This document shows positions 25,061 through 43,786 of a stretch of 46,817 nt of DNA, in pieces; within the stretch, counting starts at the first letter, position 1, and every line of letters begins with the position of its first letter. A program made the position numbers and the translations under genes. Source of the stretch: an uncultured Victivallaceae bacterium. GTDB lineage: Bacteria; Verrucomicrobiota; Lentisphaeria; Victivallales; Victivallaceae. Location: NCBI GenBank assembly GCA_944389925.1, contig CALXOD010000031.1, positions 1 to 46,817 on the forward strand, in the 5' to 3' direction. The notes below the pieces were generated by a model. That model was given only the letters and a program-made list of their open reading frames with translations, searched no databases and was not told the DNA's origin.

Positions 25061-25654
25061 TTATTCCGCTTCAACCAGCGCCTTCAGCTGCGCATCCGTC
25101 GGCGCCTTTTCCGGATAGCCCTTTAATGCCTCCAGGGCCTGCGTAAACTTCTGGGGGTTCTGCAAGCGGCCCAATTCGAACAAATAATCCATCCGGGCCT
25201 GATTTTCCGCCAATTTTGCCAGCAGAACGTTTCTCTCTCCAGCAGTACCGGCCTGTTTTTTCGCTTCCAAACTTTTGACCAGAGCCCGGCAGTTCAGCCA
25301 GCACAGGGCACTTTCCGCAGCCTGCGGCCCTACCTGTTTCCAGGCATCCAGACGAATCATGCCAACCCGGGCAAGATCCAGCTCAAGACGGGCCTTGCGA
25401 TAATCCTCAAGAGCCAATCCGCCTGCCTTGAATTCCGCAGCCGCTTCCTTCCAGTTCTGCTCCGCCAGTTTGACGCGGGCTTTCTGCGCCTGCAGGTAGT
25501 CTGCAGCAACTCGGGGCGACATCATCTTGATACCGGTGCCCGTCGCCGATCGGACGGTACTGACATTGCTTTCCGACATATTAATGCAACCGCCGCCGCA
25601 CAATACCACTGCTGCACCGATTACCAACGCCCTGGTCTTGATGGATGCTTTCAT
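25061..25654 (-). CDS. Small lipoprotein of unknown function
   Basis: A 197-residue protein with a lipoprotein signal ending VLCGGGC (Cys23). The mature part is strongly helical and Ala/Leu/Lys-rich (DYLQAQKARVKLAEQNWKEA, AKLAENQARMDYLFELG), like a coiled-coil or helical-bundle envelope protein; I recognise no named domain. Its start overlaps the stop of the lyase-family gene by 4 bp (ATGA), so it is translated with it. It could be a surface partner of that protein, but this is inference from the coupling only. Confidence 0.65.
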   Translation of the reverse strand: MKASIKTRALVIGAAVVLCGGGCINMSESNVSTVRSATGTGIKMMSPRVAADYLQAQKARVKLAEQNWKEAAAEFKAGGLALEDYRKARLELDLARVGMIRLDAWKQVGPQAAESALCWLNCRALVKSLEAKKQAGTAGERNVLLAKLAENQARMDYLFELGRLQNPQKFTQALEALKGYPEKAPTDAQLKALVEAE

Positions 25655-26856
25655 TTTCTTGCTCCTTTTGTGTCGGTTGACGTTTTCTGCCGGATGTTCT
25701 TCACGGCATCTTCCAGAAAAATCTGGTAGAAATCACTGTTCGCCTGCGGCGTATTCAGTCGGTCTAACCGGCTGGCTAAACCGGATTCAGGAACCTGAAT
25801 TGCCAGAATGGAGACCGCCTCCCGGAACATGACATGATTGCTCGGCGCCTGAAATTGCGGATGCGGCCATTTCTGAGCATTGCTTCCCATATAGGGCAGC
25901 AGAAACTCAGCAGCCTGAAGCAGACGTCCCCGGAAAAGGTCTTCACCGCAGTGCCGCGCATAAGACGCACCTTTGACAAAAATGGAAAAGGCATACGTTG
26001 AATAATCCAGACTTCTGGTCCGAGTCAATTCATGCGGCATGGCACCGTCCTGACGGATCTGGCTGTCGATGGCTTCCCGCAACAGCCGGACGCCGTCCGC
26101 GGCAATCTCCTTTTCCCCGGAGAAAAAGCCAAACGCGATCAATTGCCCGCGGTAAGCCGCACCGATGTTGTTCGGCATTTTTTCGGCGGCGGCGCGCACT
26201 TCCGGCAAACGCAAATATGCCAGAAATTCCCGAAACCACTGGCGTAGTGCCGCCCGATCCTCCGCCGTCAGCTCCGGCGCATCTCCCAACATGTAGATGG
26301 CGTCCAGTACCGACATCAGAGCATAGGAATCAATCAGCCCGGTATCGATCCGCCCTTCACAGACACCGGGGATTTCCTGAGAATAGCGCATATTCGGATT
26401 CATTCTTGTGGCGGGATCAATGAACCAGCAGCGCAACATGGCTACCGCTTTGGCAGCGATTTCCGGATCACGGGTACAGTAATAATACTGTCCCAATTCC
26501 GTCAGGCTGCGGCGCAGCCGGGCCAGTTTCGGATTGTCGCCCAGCGCCACTTCCGGATTGCTGTGCCCGTCCCGGCGGATGTAAGGAAGCCCATTGGGCG
26601 TATCCGGATTGGGCCACCAGTACCGTCCCCGGCTGATATAATCATGAATATCTCCACTGGGGGGCATGAGTTTCTTGTTGAACGTGACACTTTCCAGCGG
26701 CAGGGCCAGCAGTTCTTTTTTCCGTTGGTCCGCCTGCTGTACCAATTCCGGAGGCAACTGATGCGCCGGCGCGGCTCCCGGTGGAAGAAAAGGCAACAGT
26801 TCCGTTCCTGCGGCGGTCAACGCCGCCAGCATAACTCCGGTCATCCATCGTTTCAT
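25651..26856 (-). CDS. Secreted alginate-lyase-family protein (PF05426-like)
   Basis: The start at 26856 (MKRWMTGVMLAALTAAG) gives a good signal peptide and has GGGAG 8 bp upstream; the frame stays open 15 codons further without one. The 401-residue product has the alginate lyase-type helical toroid motifs: RGRYWWPNPDTPNGLPYIRR (76-95), a PNNIGAAY segment (228-235) and HELTRTRSLDYSTY (275-288), which in the family hold catalytic Asn/His and Tyr residues. It probably cleaves uronate-rich polysaccharide by beta-elimination outside the cytoplasm; the exact polymer cannot be read from sequence. It is coupled to the downstream lipoprotein gene and lies 77 bp after yjbQ. Confidence 0.78.
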   Translation of the reverse strand: MKRWMTGVMLAALTAAGTELLPFLPPGAAPAHQLPPELVQQADQRKKELLALPLESVTFNKKLMPPSGDIHDYISRGRYWWPNPDTPNGLPYIRRDGHSNPEVALGDNPKLARLRRSLTELGQYYYCTRDPEIAAKAVAMLRCWFIDPATRMNPNMRYSQEIPGVCEGRIDTGLIDSYALMSVLDAIYMLGDAPELTAEDRAALRQWFREFLAYLRLPEVRAAAEKMPNNIGAAYRGQLIAFGFFSGEKEIAADGVRLLREAIDSQIRQDGAMPHELTRTRSLDYSTYAFSIFVKGASYARHCGEDLFRGRLLQAAEFLLPYMGSNAQKWPHPQFQAPSNHVMFREAVSILAIQVPESGLASRLDRLNTPQANSDFYQIFLEDAVKNIRQKTSTDTKGARK

Positions 26857-26933
26857 GAGACACGCTCCCGACTGATTGATGTACATAACAACAAAAATCA
26901 AAATCAGAGTTCGAAGCGCCCCCCTTCCCTGCG

Positions 26934-38565: not shown

Positions 38566-38594
38566 TTGACAAAATCCGCTTGACCATTTATTGT
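38566..38594 (+). promoter_or_regulatory. Promoter of the duplicated secreted-protein pair
   Basis: TTGACA at 38566-38571, a 17-bp spacer and TATTGT at 38589-38594. The leader is about 70 nt and ends in a strong AAGGAGG before ATG 38673. The whole 38370-38672 interval holds this, the pheA promoter and no gene. Confidence 0.75.
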
Positions 38595-38672
38595 CTATGC
38601 CGGAGATGGGAATTCTATTTGAATTCTCCGCCCGGGAAATAATACACCCCAAATGAATGAAGGAGGTTTTGT

Positions 38673-39710
38673 ATGAAAGTCAAAGCAGTAAGCATGGCCG
38701 CCATCGGCGTTCTGCTGGCAGGCGGCGTTTCTGCGGAAGTCATGTTGCGGGATGATTTTTCCGCCAACGCCCCCGGCGAAGCGGTTCCCTCCGGCTGGCA
38801 GCTCTATAAGCAGGGGCCGAACACCGGCAAAATCTCCATCCGGGACCTTGGAGACGGAAAGCGGGAACTTCTCATTGATGATGAATGCGACCAGAGTGAA
38901 ATCGGCGTAACCCGGCAATTTCCCGCCACTGCCGGCAATTATTACCGGATCGCCCTCAAGGCACGTCAGCTGAATGAATTAAAAAAAGACCCAGCTTATT
39001 TTCAACTGCGTTTCCTGCCTTCCCAGAAATTACTCCAGCGGCCGATTACCGTACTGGATGCAGAACGTTACAATCCCAATATGATTACATTGCAGGCGCC
39101 TGCCGGCACTACCGGACTGCAGATTTTCATCTACACGCATAAAGCTCCCAAACCGGCAGTCGCAATCAGTGAATTTCAGCTGGACGAATCTGCCACTCCC
39201 TTTACCACGTTTTCGCCCTGGCCGAATGAACAGCTGCTGCTCAAGCAGGATCCCATGACCGAACTGAAGCTGGATGAAAAATCCGGTGCTCCTGTTTCCT
39301 GGGGGCGCTACACGCAGGGGCCGAACCCCGGCACCATCGAAGTGACCTCGCTGCCGGACGGTAAGACTGCGCTCAAAATGGTGGACAACGACAATCAGAG
39401 TGAAATCGGCGTCCAGTACAGCTTTAGCGTAACGCCCGGCCTCTATTATCAGGCTACGGTGGATGCCAAAAATCCGACAGAAGGACAGTGTTTCCTGCTC
39501 CAGCTTTCCATGTTTCCGGGAAAACAGCATAAGCAGGTGTTTTTCACCCGCAGCGATGACTTCAAAACTTATACGGTGACAGTCCAGGCACCGGAAGATG
39601 CCACAAAAGGCGTCGTATATATTTATTCCCACAAAGCTCCGACCGGCAGCATTGAACTGCGTAACTTCCGATTGGAACAGAGTGAACGGCCGTTTACCGA
39701 AACCAGGTGA
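38673..39710 (+). CDS. Secreted protein with two tandem carbohydrate-binding-like domains (paralogue 1)
   Basis: A 345-residue protein with a signal peptide (about 1-21, AAIGVLLAGGVSA). The mature part is two copies of one roughly 150-residue beta-rich domain (about 22-180 and 193-345). Both share the order QGPNxGxI, DGKxxLxxxDxxxQSEIGV, GxYYxxxxxAK, a 'YxHKAP' strand and a closing ESxxPFT. The layout is like galactose-binding/CBM-type jelly rolls at the surface of glycan-degrading bacteria. No catalytic residues are evident, so it is probably a binding or scaffold protein; the ligand is unknown. A strong promoter and AAGGAGG precede it. The next gene is a diverged copy. Confidence 0.75.
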   Translation: MKVKAVSMAAIGVLLAGGVSAEVMLRDDFSANAPGEAVPSGWQLYKQGPNTGKISIRDLGDGKRELLIDDECDQSEIGVTRQFPATAGNYYRIALKARQLNELKKDPAYFQLRFLPSQKLLQRPITVLDAERYNPNMITLQAPAGTTGLQIFIYTHKAPKPAVAISEFQLDESATPFTTFSPWPNEQLLLKQDPMTELKLDEKSGAPVSWGRYTQGPNPGTIEVTSLPDGKTALKMVDNDNQSEIGVQYSFSVTPGLYYQATVDAKNPTEGQCFLLQLSMFPGKQHKQVFFTRSDDFKTYTVTVQAPEDATKGVVYIYSHKAPTGSIELRNFRLEQSERPFTETR

Positions 39711-39718
39711 GGATTCTT

Positions 39719-40774
39719 ATGAAACATCTGATTTTTTCCGCTTTTCTGGCCTGCGGCTGCGTGGCGATGGGCGTGGAGCCGGAAGTCATGCTGCGGGACA
39801 ATTTTGAATTCTGCGAACCGGGACCGGGGGTGCCGGCCGGGCATGATCTCTTTTTCGGCACGAAACTGACGGGAGATGCAGCCAAAAACACTAAAACTTC
39901 TGTCTCCGTGGCGGCCAAAGAGAACGGCAGGGAAGTGATCGTCGATGACCAGTGCGAACAAACTGGCCTCGGCATCTGCAAAACCTTTGCCGCCGCCGGT
40001 GGCAAGACCTATCGCGCCACCATCAAGGCCCGTCCACTGGACGGGCGCAGTCTTGATGGTTTTTTCATTCAACTGACCGGTGTGCCATCCAATCAGAGCC
40101 GGTCGGCTCAAGTCGTTGCTCCGGCTGAAGGAGAAGAATATGGCCAGACACAAGTGATATTCAAATTGCCGGAAGGAGACAAGCAGGTCCGGTATTACGC
40201 TTATTCGAACTATGGTGGCCTGCCTCGCGTGGCCATCGGAGAAATCACTGTCGAAGAGTTGGATCCCTCTGTGCCTGTCAAACTCATGGAAGAAAAGTTT
40301 GCGGAAAAGCCCGTCAAGGAAGGACCTCCGAGCGGCCATGCCCTTTTCTTCTCCACGAAACTCACCGGAGACGCAGCGAAAAATACCGCCACCCGTCTTG
40401 GTGTGGCCAAGGGACTGGATGGGAATGAACTCTTTCTCGAAGATCATTGTGATATGACCGGTCTCGGCACCCATCGTATCTTTCCGGGCACCCCCGGCAA
40501 GTATTATCGGGCTACGGTGACGTTGCGCCCGCTGGAAGGCGAAACCGTAAACGGCGTTTTTCTGCAGTTGCGCGGTCTTCCCTCGAACGAGCTCAATCAG
40601 GTTCAGGTGAAGGCACCGGCCGAAGGCGAAACCTGGAGTACGACCGCCATTACCTTCCAGTTGCCGGAAGGCGATCAAAATGTGCAGTATTATGTTTACT
40701 CCAACTACGAGCTGAAACCGGCGGTTGCCGTCCGTGAAATCACGGTTGAAGAGTGCGAGTCGCCTTTCAAATGA
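39719..40774 (+). CDS. Secreted protein with two tandem carbohydrate-binding-like domains (paralogue 2)
   Basis: The start at ATG 39719 (MKHLIFSAFLACGCVAMG) has AGGTGAGGA upstream, which overlaps the stop of the previous gene; a GTG four codons earlier is less likely. The 351-residue product has a signal peptide and two copies of the same domain as its neighbour. They match each other more closely: FGTKLTGDAAKNTKT against FSTKLTGDAAKNTAT, CEQTGLG against CDMTGLG, and LPEGDKQVRYYAYSNY against LPEGDQNVQYYVYSNY. Both copies begin with an acidic D/E-x-F and end in a VEE/VEEC strand. It is probably co-transcribed with paralogue 1. The ligand and role are unknown. Confidence 0.75.
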   Translation: MKHLIFSAFLACGCVAMGVEPEVMLRDNFEFCEPGPGVPAGHDLFFGTKLTGDAAKNTKTSVSVAAKENGREVIVDDQCEQTGLGICKTFAAAGGKTYRATIKARPLDGRSLDGFFIQLTGVPSNQSRSAQVVAPAEGEEYGQTQVIFKLPEGDKQVRYYAYSNYGGLPRVAIGEITVEELDPSVPVKLMEEKFAEKPVKEGPPSGHALFFSTKLTGDAAKNTATRLGVAKGLDGNELFLEDHCDMTGLGTHRIFPGTPGKYYRATVTLRPLEGETVNGVFLQLRGLPSNELNQVQVKAPAEGETWSTTAITFQLPEGDQNVQYYVYSNYELKPAVAVREITVEECESPFK

Positions 40775-40803: not shown

Positions 40804-40844
40804 CCCTTTCCGGGATGAGTATCTCAGCAGAAGCTCATAAAAAA

Positions 40845-40883
40845 AACTCCCTTTCTGCAATCCTGCGGAAAGGGAGTTTTTTT
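40845..40883. terminator. Bidirectional rho-independent terminator
   Basis: An 11-bp stem, AACTCCCTTTC with GAAAGGGAGTT, extendable by TGCA/TGCG in the loop. A-rich sequence precedes it and seven T residues follow. It ends the secreted pair (+) and the Gfo/Idh/MocA gene (-). Confidence 0.88.
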
Positions 40884-40896
40884 ATTGAGAAAACGG

Positions 40897-41973
40897 TTAA
40901 TCTCCCAGTTGAACAGGCCGTTTTTCCGCGGCGGAACGGTAAATGGCGTCCAGCAACCGCATGACCGTAACCCCCTGCTCCGGTGCCACCAGAAACGGTT
41001 CGTTCTTCAATACTGCGTCGGCAAAGAGATAATACCCGCTGCGACATTCCGGCATCGGCGGATGCAGCTTCATATCGAACTGCGCCCCGTGACACTCATG
41101 GCAATACTCCACATCAAATTCATACCCTTCATGCAGATTAAACTGCCGGATACCGCCCCGGGTGCCAAGCAGCTGCGTGGACATGAGTTCATTTTCCCGA
41201 ATATTGGCCGCCCAGGAGGCTTCCAGCTCCAGCATGGCGCCGTTTTTGAAGCGGATCATTGCACAGGCCAGATCCTCAACGCTGTATGCAAACCCCTTCG
41301 CCGCGGCAATGCCCGGTCCGAAGGGTGCGTAGGTATTGGCCATCACCCATTCCGGCTCCGGATAGTTCATGATCCAGAGCGCCAGATCCAGACGGTGTAC
41401 GCCAAGATCAATCAACGGCCCGCCGCCGGAACGCTGCTTGTCAAAGAACCAGTTCCCGGAGGCTCCGCCGGAATTAAACCCGCTTCTGCCCAAGCCCGGT
41501 ACTCCGCGCCGACGGTGCCAGATGGTACGAGCGAAATAAACATCGCCCAGGGCTCCGCTTTCGGCCAGATTTTTCATCGCCCGTGACTGGGGATGAAAAC
41601 GATAGGAGAAGTTAATGCCGAGTTTCCGATTGCATTCTTTCGCCGTCCGGAGCATGATTTCCGCCTGCTCGGCGTTAAGCGCCATCGGTTTTTCGCACAG
41701 TACATTGGCTCCGGACCGGAGCGCCGCTACTGTAAGCGCCATGTGGTCGATGTTGGGTACGGCAATGGACACCAAGTCCAGTTTTTCGGCATCAAACATT
41801 TCCTGGGCTGTGGCATATGCCCGGGGAATCGCCAGTTCTTTCTGATAATAATGCAACTTCGGCACATCGATATCCGCGATCGCCACCACTTCTACTTCGG
41901 GGTGTTCCCGATATCCGGCGATATGATTGCGGCCCATGCCGAGGCCGACCACGCCCGCTTTGAGTTTTTTCAT
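40897..41973 (-). CDS. Gfo/Idh/MocA-family oxidoreductase
   Basis: The start at 41973 (MKKLKAGVVGLGMGRNH) follows GGAAAG and gives 358 residues; an ATG five codons upstream overlaps that site. An NAD(P)-binding Rossmann fold with GLGMG (10-14) and the catalytic/cofactor motif CEKPMAL (93-99) precede the substrate domain with RRGVPGLGRSGFNSGG and DLGVHRLDLALW, whose Asp and His are the usual catalytic pair. The family oxidises or epimerises sugars and cyclitols. It lies 24 bp after the ThuA-like gene on the same strand, a pairing common in sugar-derivative pathways. The substrate is not known. Confidence 0.9.
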   Translation of the reverse strand: MKKLKAGVVGLGMGRNHIAGYREHPEVEVVAIADIDVPKLHYYQKELAIPRAYATAQEMFDAEKLDLVSIAVPNIDHMALTVAALRSGANVLCEKPMALNAEQAEIMLRTAKECNRKLGINFSYRFHPQSRAMKNLAESGALGDVYFARTIWHRRRGVPGLGRSGFNSGGASGNWFFDKQRSGGGPLIDLGVHRLDLALWIMNYPEPEWVMANTYAPFGPGIAAAKGFAYSVEDLACAMIRFKNGAMLELEASWAANIRENELMSTQLLGTRGGIRQFNLHEGYEFDVEYCHECHGAQFDMKLHPPMPECRSGYYLFADAVLKNEPFLVAPEQGVTVMRLLDAIYRSAAEKRPVQLGD

Positions 41974-41997
41974 GATTTTTCTTTCCATATAAAAATG

Positions 41998-42771
41998 TCA
42001 GAGACTCTGTACAACGCCTGCCCTGGCAGTGGCGGCGGGGTCTTCAGAACGGATTTCTTCCAACGCTTCGACCTTCGGACAGATATGTTCGCGCCGAATC
42101 AGAGGACGTGCCCAGCGAACGGCGTTTCCGAGGACACGCAATACATTGGCATCGCGGTAAATCGGATAAGTTTCATGACCGGGACTGAAATAAAAAATCT
42201 TCCCGTATCCGCGTTCGAAGGTCACTCCGCTGCGGAATACCTCTCCGCCTTCGTACCAGGAAATAAACACCACATGACCGTCAGAAGGAATATCAAACCG
42301 CTCGCCATACATCTCCACATGCGGCAATTCAAAGTAATCTCCGATTCCCTGGGTAATCGGATGGGCGGGATCGATGTTCCAGACCCGTTCACGTTCTCCC
42401 GCCTCCCGCCAGCGCAGCGAACAGTTGGTTCCCATAAGCGACTTGAAAATCTTGGAAAAATGTCCGGAATGCAGGACCAGAAGCCCCATCCCCTCCAACA
42501 CCTTCCGGTGTACCTTGCGAACGATTTCGTCAGGCACATCGGCATGACGGCAATGCCCCCACCAAATCAATACGTCAGTCTGCTCCAGGACGGCATCGGT
42601 CAAACCGCATTCCGGCTCGTCCAGGGAGGCCAGACGGATATCCAGATCATCGGCGGCAATGCCGTCTGCAATGGCTTTGTGCAGGCCGTCCGGATACAGA
42701 GAGGCCACACGGGCGTTGTTCTTTTCGTGATAGAACTCATTCCAGATCGTGACGTGAATTTTCTGACACAT
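41998..42771 (-). CDS. ThuA-like (trehalose utilisation) family protein
   Basis: A 257-residue protein with the class-I-glutaminase-like ThuA fold: TDVLIWWGHCRHADVPDEI, EGMGLLVLHSGHFSKIF, WNIDPAHPITQGIG, VFISWYEGG and YFSPGHETYPIY. ThuA in rhizobia is linked to conversion of trehalose or 3-keto-sugars. Here it is paired with a Gfo/Idh/MocA dehydrogenase, which supports a role in 3-keto-sugar or related catabolism (inference). It is divergent from the AraC-type gene at 42914, whose operators probably lie between them. Confidence 0.88.
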   Translation of the reverse strand: MCQKIHVTIWNEFYHEKNNARVASLYPDGLHKAIADGIAADDLDIRLASLDEPECGLTDAVLEQTDVLIWWGHCRHADVPDEIVRKVHRKVLEGMGLLVLHSGHFSKIFKSLMGTNCSLRWREAGERERVWNIDPAHPITQGIGDYFELPHVEMYGERFDIPSDGHVVFISWYEGGEVFRSGVTFERGYGKIFYFSPGHETYPIYRDANVLRVLGNAVRWARPLIRREHICPKVEALEEIRSEDPAATARAGVVQSL

Positions 42772-42805
42772 ACGTACCTCTTTTTTTACAGGAACCGGTT
42801 GATTT

Positions 42806-42848
42806 TCCGGGAAACACTCCTCATATTATAGTCGCTGCTCCGGGAAAC
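42806..42848. repeat. Direct repeat TCCGGGAAAC, 33 bp apart
   Basis: Two exact 10-bp copies at 42806-42815 and 42839-42848, three helical turns apart, in the intergenic region between the divergent thuA and araC-type genes. Same-face spacing suits an AraC-family dimer or loop. Confidence 0.5.
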
Positions 42849-42870
42849 TGCAATCGTTCCGGAGATTGCA
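42849..42870. promoter_or_regulatory. Inverted repeat TGCAATC-N8-GATTGCA
   Basis: A perfect 7-bp inverted repeat adjoining the direct repeats. It may be an extra operator or a hairpin in the leader of the AraC-type gene. Confidence 0.4.
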
Positions 42871-42898
42871 TTTTGTGATATTGCTTTTCCTTTTGTGA
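42871..42898. promoter_or_regulatory. Direct repeat TTTTGTGA, 20 bp apart (candidate AraC operator)
   Basis: Copies at 42871-42878 and 42891-42898 are repeated in the same orientation two helical turns apart, the geometry of AraC-type half-sites. The second copy ends just before GGGAGGAG, the ribosome binding site of the AraC gene, so binding would also repress it. Confidence 0.5.
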
Positions 42899-42913
42899 CA
42901 GGGAGGAGCTTTT

Positions 42914-43786
42914 ATGACCGCTCTGGAAAAAATTCGTGTCTGGCAGGTGAACTTCGCCATCCGCCGCCCCCTGCCCGGGGTGCCTCTGCCGTTGTTGCTG
43001 GTCGAGGAAATTCAATCCCATGCCGGCTACCGCATCGGCAGTCGAGATCTGCCGGGCAGTCAGTTATCCATTACGATCGGCGGCACAGGAGGCCTGCGCA
43101 TCGGCAGTCGGGAAATGCGGCTGCAGCCGGGAATGGCGTTTCTGCATAATCATAACGATCCGGAGATCACATATTTCTTTCCCCCCGAAGCGACGGAACC
43201 ATGGCGTTTCCTCTGGATTGCCTTTGCGGGGGCGGAATCACTGACGGCCGAAGTCAATGCCCGTTACGGTTACAGCTTCCAGCTTTCCCTGGAGCGGGAT
43301 ATCGTCCCGCAACTGAGCACATTGCGTCCGAAAAACGGCAGAATCGGCGTAGAGCCGCTGACCGCCCTCGGAGGAGGCCGTCTGATTTATGAACTGCTGG
43401 AGCGACTGGGAGAAACTGTGGATCGTCCTCTGCTGGATCATCCGGCCGGCCGCCTGGCTACCCGGGCGCAGGAGCTGGTTCTGGCACACCTTGATCGGGA
43501 ATTTCCGGGAGCGGAACTGGCGCACACGCTGTCGCTTTCCCGGGAACACCTGCTGCGGATTTTCCGGGAACAGACCGGTGAAACGCTGCACGCTTATCAG
43601 ATGAACTGCCGCCTGGAACTGGCTCTGCGCCTGCTCGCACAGCAGCAGTTATCCTGCAAGGAAGTGGCGCTGCGCTGTGGCTTCCGACATTATTCGAGCT
43701 TCGTGCGCGCCGTTCGCCGTCGCACCGGCAGGACACCGGAAGAACTCCGGACAAGCCCGCCGATGCTGCTGCATCCTCTCACCTGA
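42914..43786 (+). CDS. AraC-family transcriptional regulator
   Basis: A 290-residue regulator. The N-terminal cupin-type sensor (about 20-150) has GSREMRLQPGMAFLHNHNDP and ITYFFPPEATEPWRFLWIAF, the Trp/His-rich strand pair usual in this group. The C-terminal DNA-binding domain carries two helix-turn-helix motifs, LAHTLSLSREHLLRIFREQTG and CKEVALRCGFRHYSSFVRAV, and ends TGRTPEELR. GGGAGGAG precedes the ATG. It is divergent from thuA-Gfo/Idh/MocA and probably controls these and perhaps the secreted pair, using the direct repeats at 42806-42898. The inducer is unknown. Confidence 0.92.
   Translation: MTALEKIRVWQVNFAIRRPLPGVPLPLLLVEEIQSHAGYRIGSRDLPGSQLSITIGGTGGLRIGSREMRLQPGMAFLHNHNDPEITYFFPPEATEPWRFLWIAFAGAESLTAEVNARYGYSFQLSLERDIVPQLSTLRPKNGRIGVEPLTALGGGRLIYELLERLGETVDRPLLDHPAGRLATRAQELVLAHLDREFPGAELAHTLSLSREHLLRIFREQTGETLHAYQMNCRLELALRLLAQQQLSCKEVALRCGFRHYSSFVRAVRRRTGRTPEELRTSPPMLLHPLT

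Follow-up and report, generated by a model that had tools for sequence, protein, structure and literature searches.

The window analysed here is the whole 46,817-nucleotide stretch of contig CALXOD010000031.1, from an uncultured Victivallaceae bacterium. It carries two genes on the + strand, P1 and P2, with 8 bases between the stop of the first and the start of the second. P1 (38673..39710) encodes a secreted protein of 345 aa that begins with the signal peptide MKVKAVSMAAIGVLLAGGVSA, and P2 (39719..40774) encodes a secreted protein of 351 aa, counted from the ATG at 39719; an in-frame GTG also lies upstream, at 39707. A signal-peptide-like stretch, recognised by eye, opens both proteins, and each is otherwise made of two copies of a domain of about 157 residues, with no further parts. 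The copies, all on the + strand, are P1a (38733..39209), supported by repeat alignment, an AlphaFold model with pLDDT 95.9 and Foldseek; P1b (39231..39701) and P2a (39779..40279), both supported by repeat alignment and profile search; and P2b (40274..40771), supported by alignment, profile and the domain tree. Every pairwise alignment of the four exceeded its shuffled controls (z 8.7 to 75), with observed scores of 75-419 where the best of 300 shuffles reached at most 56. An earlier note on this DNA, which described two adjacent secreted proteins built from four copies of one domain, was therefore right about both the coordinates and the repeats.

It was also right that the copies in P2 are the closest to each other: P2a and P2b are 50-54% identical, P1a and P1b 34%, and a P1 copy against a P2 copy 21-33%, with 21-35% as the overall range outside P2a/P2b. 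The shared motifs it listed stood with small exceptions. QSEIG occurs in both P1 copies, TGLG in both P2 copies and TKLTGDAAKNT in P2a and P2b, but only P1a and P2b have an exact YYR (the other two copies read YYQ and TYR), and the PF end is found in three of the four, P2a ending in DPSV instead. Each of the four modules is acidic overall (-1 to -5). The candidate groove positions (aromatic/His 22, Y/F25, R61, R72, Q91, Y132 and Y134, numbered as in the P1a module) are widely conserved.

A putative sigma-70-type promoter, TTGACA-17-TATTGT, lies at 38566..38594 (+ strand). The earlier note called it strong; matches to the consensus are not above chance in a scan (2 found, 1.6 expected), but another species keeps the -35/-10 block at the orthologous locus. 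The perfect ribosome-binding site described before P1, AAGGAGG (38660..38666, + strand), is present and kept in that same locus. The terminator held up as well: a probable bidirectional intrinsic terminator at 40843..40884, common to P2 and the convergent oxidoreductase gene, forms a hairpin whose pairing is kept through base changes in three genomes, one stem position reading T-A, A-T and C-G (by eye). This hairpin was not among the listed results of the terminator scan. An oxidoreductase-like gene, a ThuA-family gene and a divergent AraC-type regulator adjoin P1 and P2 at 40897-43786, and together they possibly form a small sugar-catabolism cluster. Elsewhere in the window, on the - strand at 25654-26901, lies a gene for an alginate-lyase-family protein (PF05426, E 4e-62).

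In Pfam, no family passed its cut-off for P1 or P2 (CBM_4_9 reached 13 bits for P1 against a cut-off of 25.9 and was absent for P2), and NCBIfam likewise gave nothing over cut-off for either protein. GTA_spike_fiber was rejected because it scored 19 bits where the cut-off is 36, the weak Pfam matches of P2 to PET, FlgA and Usg were taken as chance, and a comparison of P1 with phages gave no match. PDB sequence searches with P2 alone and with a profile of the 16 own-genome copies found nothing significant. The AlphaFold model of a single repeat, P1a, made from an alignment of 71 copies, is a confident all-beta sandwich (pLDDT 95.9, pTM 0.90), the type of fold that the earlier note had anticipated. 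Foldseek matched it in the PDB to CBM16, CBM22, CBM4, CBM27 and CBM70 (4D0Q) at E 4e-7 to 2e-5, and also to beta-sandwich domains of phage tailspikes and Cry toxins. A PDB search with the 71-copy profile, which includes distant copies that match PF02018 themselves (7 of the 71), returned the CBM4 laminarinase module 1GUI (2.8e-5) and CBM4-2 1K42 (1.5e-4). The intermediate sequence L037 matches both the A1 profile (1.4e-26) and CBM_4_9, the latter at 28.3 bits and over the cut-off. Because such intermediates connect it to Pfam CBM_4_9, the module belongs to the CBM4/9/16/22 clan as a divergent branch; in its own genome Pfam misses it, as no copy there exceeds the CBM_4_9 cut-off and only some distant relatives do. 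The earlier note called the domain uncharacterised; it has no significant Pfam match of its own, but it does not stand alone, since it belongs to the CBM_4_9 clan and has at least 12 more copies in this genome. It is possible that an existing CAZy family outside Pfam matches the module, which was not found in the open-access literature on Lentisphaeria CBMs or PL21-CBM pairs.

A profile search of the 2.8-Mb genome found 16 strong copies and one weak place. Beyond P1 and P2, at least 12 copies lie in nine large secreted proteins (900-1800 aa), all at the N-terminus. Two of these proteins, L010 and L012, are homologues of heparinase II (PL21; E 2e-92 and 1e-87). In the alignment L012 keeps the heparinase II residues H202, E205, Y257 and H406 (PDB 2FUQ), and it also has HepII_C, Cu-amine-oxidase-N and F5/8C domains; L010 matches the NCBIfam HepB model below its cut-off (389.5 against 600). 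L015 is a right-handed beta-helix protein with the module at its N-terminus. The other six (L009:2254-7635, L011:2382-6992, L013:6228-10463, L014:3539-8527, L016:1159-5985 and L017:6590-11158) have one core in common that belongs to no Pfam family. For the core of L013, a toroid plus beta-sandwich is predicted (pLDDT 85.4), and the best PDB matches of this model are heparinase III (PL12), PL17 alginate lyases, PL33 hyaluronan lyase and other glycosaminoglycan lyases (E 1e-14 to 1e-11, TM 0.42-0.48, 11-13% identity). Judged by this model, the six proteins may be a new polysaccharide lyase family. Their predicted architecture further includes an alpha/beta part at the N-terminus and, at the C-terminus, a propeller-like part with PQQ or FG-GAP matches. 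Directly after one of the module-bearing lyase genes, a 529-aa protein (L017:11155-12744) contains a weak CBM_4_9-like stretch. P1 and P2 themselves do not adjoin any module-bearing lyase gene. The genome as a whole has 23 Hepar_II_III_C places, 20 of them over cut-off, and only three sulfatases; neither GH88/GH105 uronyl hydrolase nor SusD was found in it. Such an enzyme set is unusual for a degrader of uronate polysaccharides.

The P1-P2 locus is collinear in two more genomes of the genus (L028 and L029, from uncultured Lentisphaeria bacteria). Between P1 and its L028 orthologue dN is 0.09 and dS 1.1 (dN/dS about 0.08), and between P2 and its orthologues dN is 0.03-0.04 and dS about 0.7 (dN/dS 0.04-0.06). 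These low ratios indicate purifying selection on both proteins. Strong copies of the module occur in 8 of 137 genomes of the order and in 17 of 388 genomes of the phylum sample. In other families of the class it is again paired with these two types of enzyme (L078-L081, L086), and more distant members of the phylum have two-module proteins with a PF14099 polysaccharide lyase domain. For the PF14099 domain of L083, a PDB search returned no match. In another genus of the same family, genome G011 has a one-module gene beside a two-module gene (L032), as well as one-module secreted proteins (L033:4734-5207, L077:5663-6127 and L038:3094-3588) directly upstream of enzymes with an N-terminal module. 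The suggestion that the proteins are lineage-specific therefore fits the P1-P2 pair, which occurs in one genus, with this related cluster of one-module and two-module genes in another, but not the domain, which is sporadic across the class and phylum.

The history of the four copies is less simple than two rounds of duplication, as proposed earlier. In the domain tree each copy clusters with its own orthologues, so the P1/P2 arrangement is older than the genus. The two P2 copies are sisters (support 88), and this internal duplication of P2 likewise took place before the genus arose. However, constraining P1a and P1b as a clade was 20 log units worse (p-AU 0.04) and constraining all four copies as a clade was 43 log units worse (p-AU 0.0009), so both constraints were rejected, and with them the reading of two clean rounds. 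P1a and P1b are thus probably not sisters, and P1 and P2 were probably put together from a wider module family. In the tree P1a falls close to the lyase module L009a and P1b close to the PL21 modules, neither with strong support; the deep branches are long and weakly supported.

That the domain is a glycan-binding beta-sandwich, as the earlier note had guessed, is supported through homology by its fold, by the profile matches and by its fusion partners. Since the same module is the usual targeting piece at the N-terminus of this genome's heparinase-like lyases, P1 and P2 likely bind a polysaccharide of the kind that these lyases attack. We lean towards the view that they are tandem CBMs without an enzyme of their own, holding the polysaccharide on which the module-bearing lyases act. 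Under this model P1 and P2 would be co-transcribed, exported and non-catalytic, with two divergent CBM4-like modules in tandem in each, and two modules per protein would give higher avidity. They would bind polysaccharide of the same uronic-acid-containing class as the lyases and would hold or present its chains to those enzymes, either in the periplasm or extracellularly; the organism lacks a SusD-type binding protein. As to the ligand, the heparinase-like partners suggest polymers that contain uronic acid. With only three sulfatases and no GH88/GH105, classical glycosaminoglycan catabolism in this organism is doubtful; for these same reasons, and because the modules are acidic, a glycosaminoglycan ligand should not be assumed and is one option among others. 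A broader proposal, that this is a new Lentisphaeria CBM family serving heparinase-like uronate lyases and that P1 and P2 form a soluble, SusD-independent capture system feeding them, is possible, though less likely than not. In kind the module is ordinary, a CBM, but it is divergent, has multiplied in this genome, is associated with lyases and occurs in free tandem proteins too. Sixteen copies in a 2.8-Mb genome, none of which the Pfam model picks up, are thereby given a fold, a clan and a likely role. The analysis also brings to light a group of large Lentisphaeria enzymes resembling lyases, whose substrates could be revealed by the ligands of P1 and P2.

Some observations weigh against sugar capture: similar beta-sandwiches play other roles too, as the Cry toxins and phage tail proteins among the Foldseek matches illustrate, the P1 and P2 genes do not lie beside a module-bearing lyase gene, and the acidic window modules differ from the basic groove of CBM70. 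The acidity would also suit a protein-protein or assembly domain that joins the lyases to one another and to P1 and P2, which would then be scaffolds or stabilising subunits instead of sugar binders. The module nearly always sits at the N-terminus of lyases from two sequence families, and in G011 the three single-module proteins sit directly upstream of module-bearing enzymes, as partner subunits might. However, the nearest folds and profile matches are mostly carbohydrate-binding modules, and the conserved candidate positions are of a kind often seen in sugar grooves. An assembly role is unlikely.

A role as surface adhesins or matrix proteins, a location that the earlier note had suggested, by which the cell would attach to the mucus of a host or to other cells of its kind, appears less probable still. 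Stand-alone tandem modules of glycan-binding type with signal peptides and no catalytic part would fit it, and P1 and P2 are possibly well expressed, but no surface anchor or sorting signal was recognised in their sequences and in their own genome the same module serves degradative enzymes. It is very improbable that P1 and P2 are functionless N-termini left over from lyase genes that lost their catalytic parts. The placement of P1a near L009a and of P1b near the PL21 modules would fit such an origin, though that placement is not strongly supported; a dN/dS of about 0.04-0.08 speaks against a pseudogene, the gene pair, promoter and terminator are conserved in relatives, and a related cluster of one-module and two-module genes exists in another genus.

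Capture by free tandem CBMs can be set beside several known systems. The module and PF02018 CBM_4_9 (1GUI, 1K42, 2ZEY and 4XUP) are alike in their beta-sandwich (TM about 0.55-0.65) and in being attached to carbohydrate-active enzymes; the 71-copy profile matches CBM4 significantly and several intermediate copies pass the Pfam cut-off, whereas all own-genome copies fall below it and identity in structure alignments is 10-15%. The SusE/SGBP-type surface proteins of Bacteroidetes would do the same job if P1 and P2 are non-catalytic, secreted, multi-module proteins for glycan capture. However, P1 and P2 have no clear lipobox and no PUL-like neighbourhood, and since the genome has no SusD, they are not explained by a capture system of the Bacteroidetes type. 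Compared with heparinase II (PL21, PDB 2FUQ), whose homologues L010 and L012 carry the module N-terminally in this same genome, P1 and P2 lack the catalytic part. CBM70 (4D0Q) has a similar fold (E 4e-7, TM 0.61), although P1a is only 14% identical to it in the structure alignment and CBM70 is absent from the profile matches; members of the SpCBM70 family themselves reach down to 30% identity (PMC4175358). The ligand groove of CBM70 is basic, with W82, R112, R145 and K185 (PMC4175358), in contrast to the net acidic window modules, though R61 and R72 are conserved in the latter. P1 and P2 further differ in being two-module proteins without any enzyme. Nevertheless, CBM70 and the module described here both occur N-terminally on a polysaccharide lyase, and CBM70, on the hyaluronate lyase of Streptococcus pneumoniae, binds the substrate of that lyase, hyaluronan (PMC4175358). 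This is a precedent for the binding of a lyase's substrate by a module at the enzyme's N-terminus.
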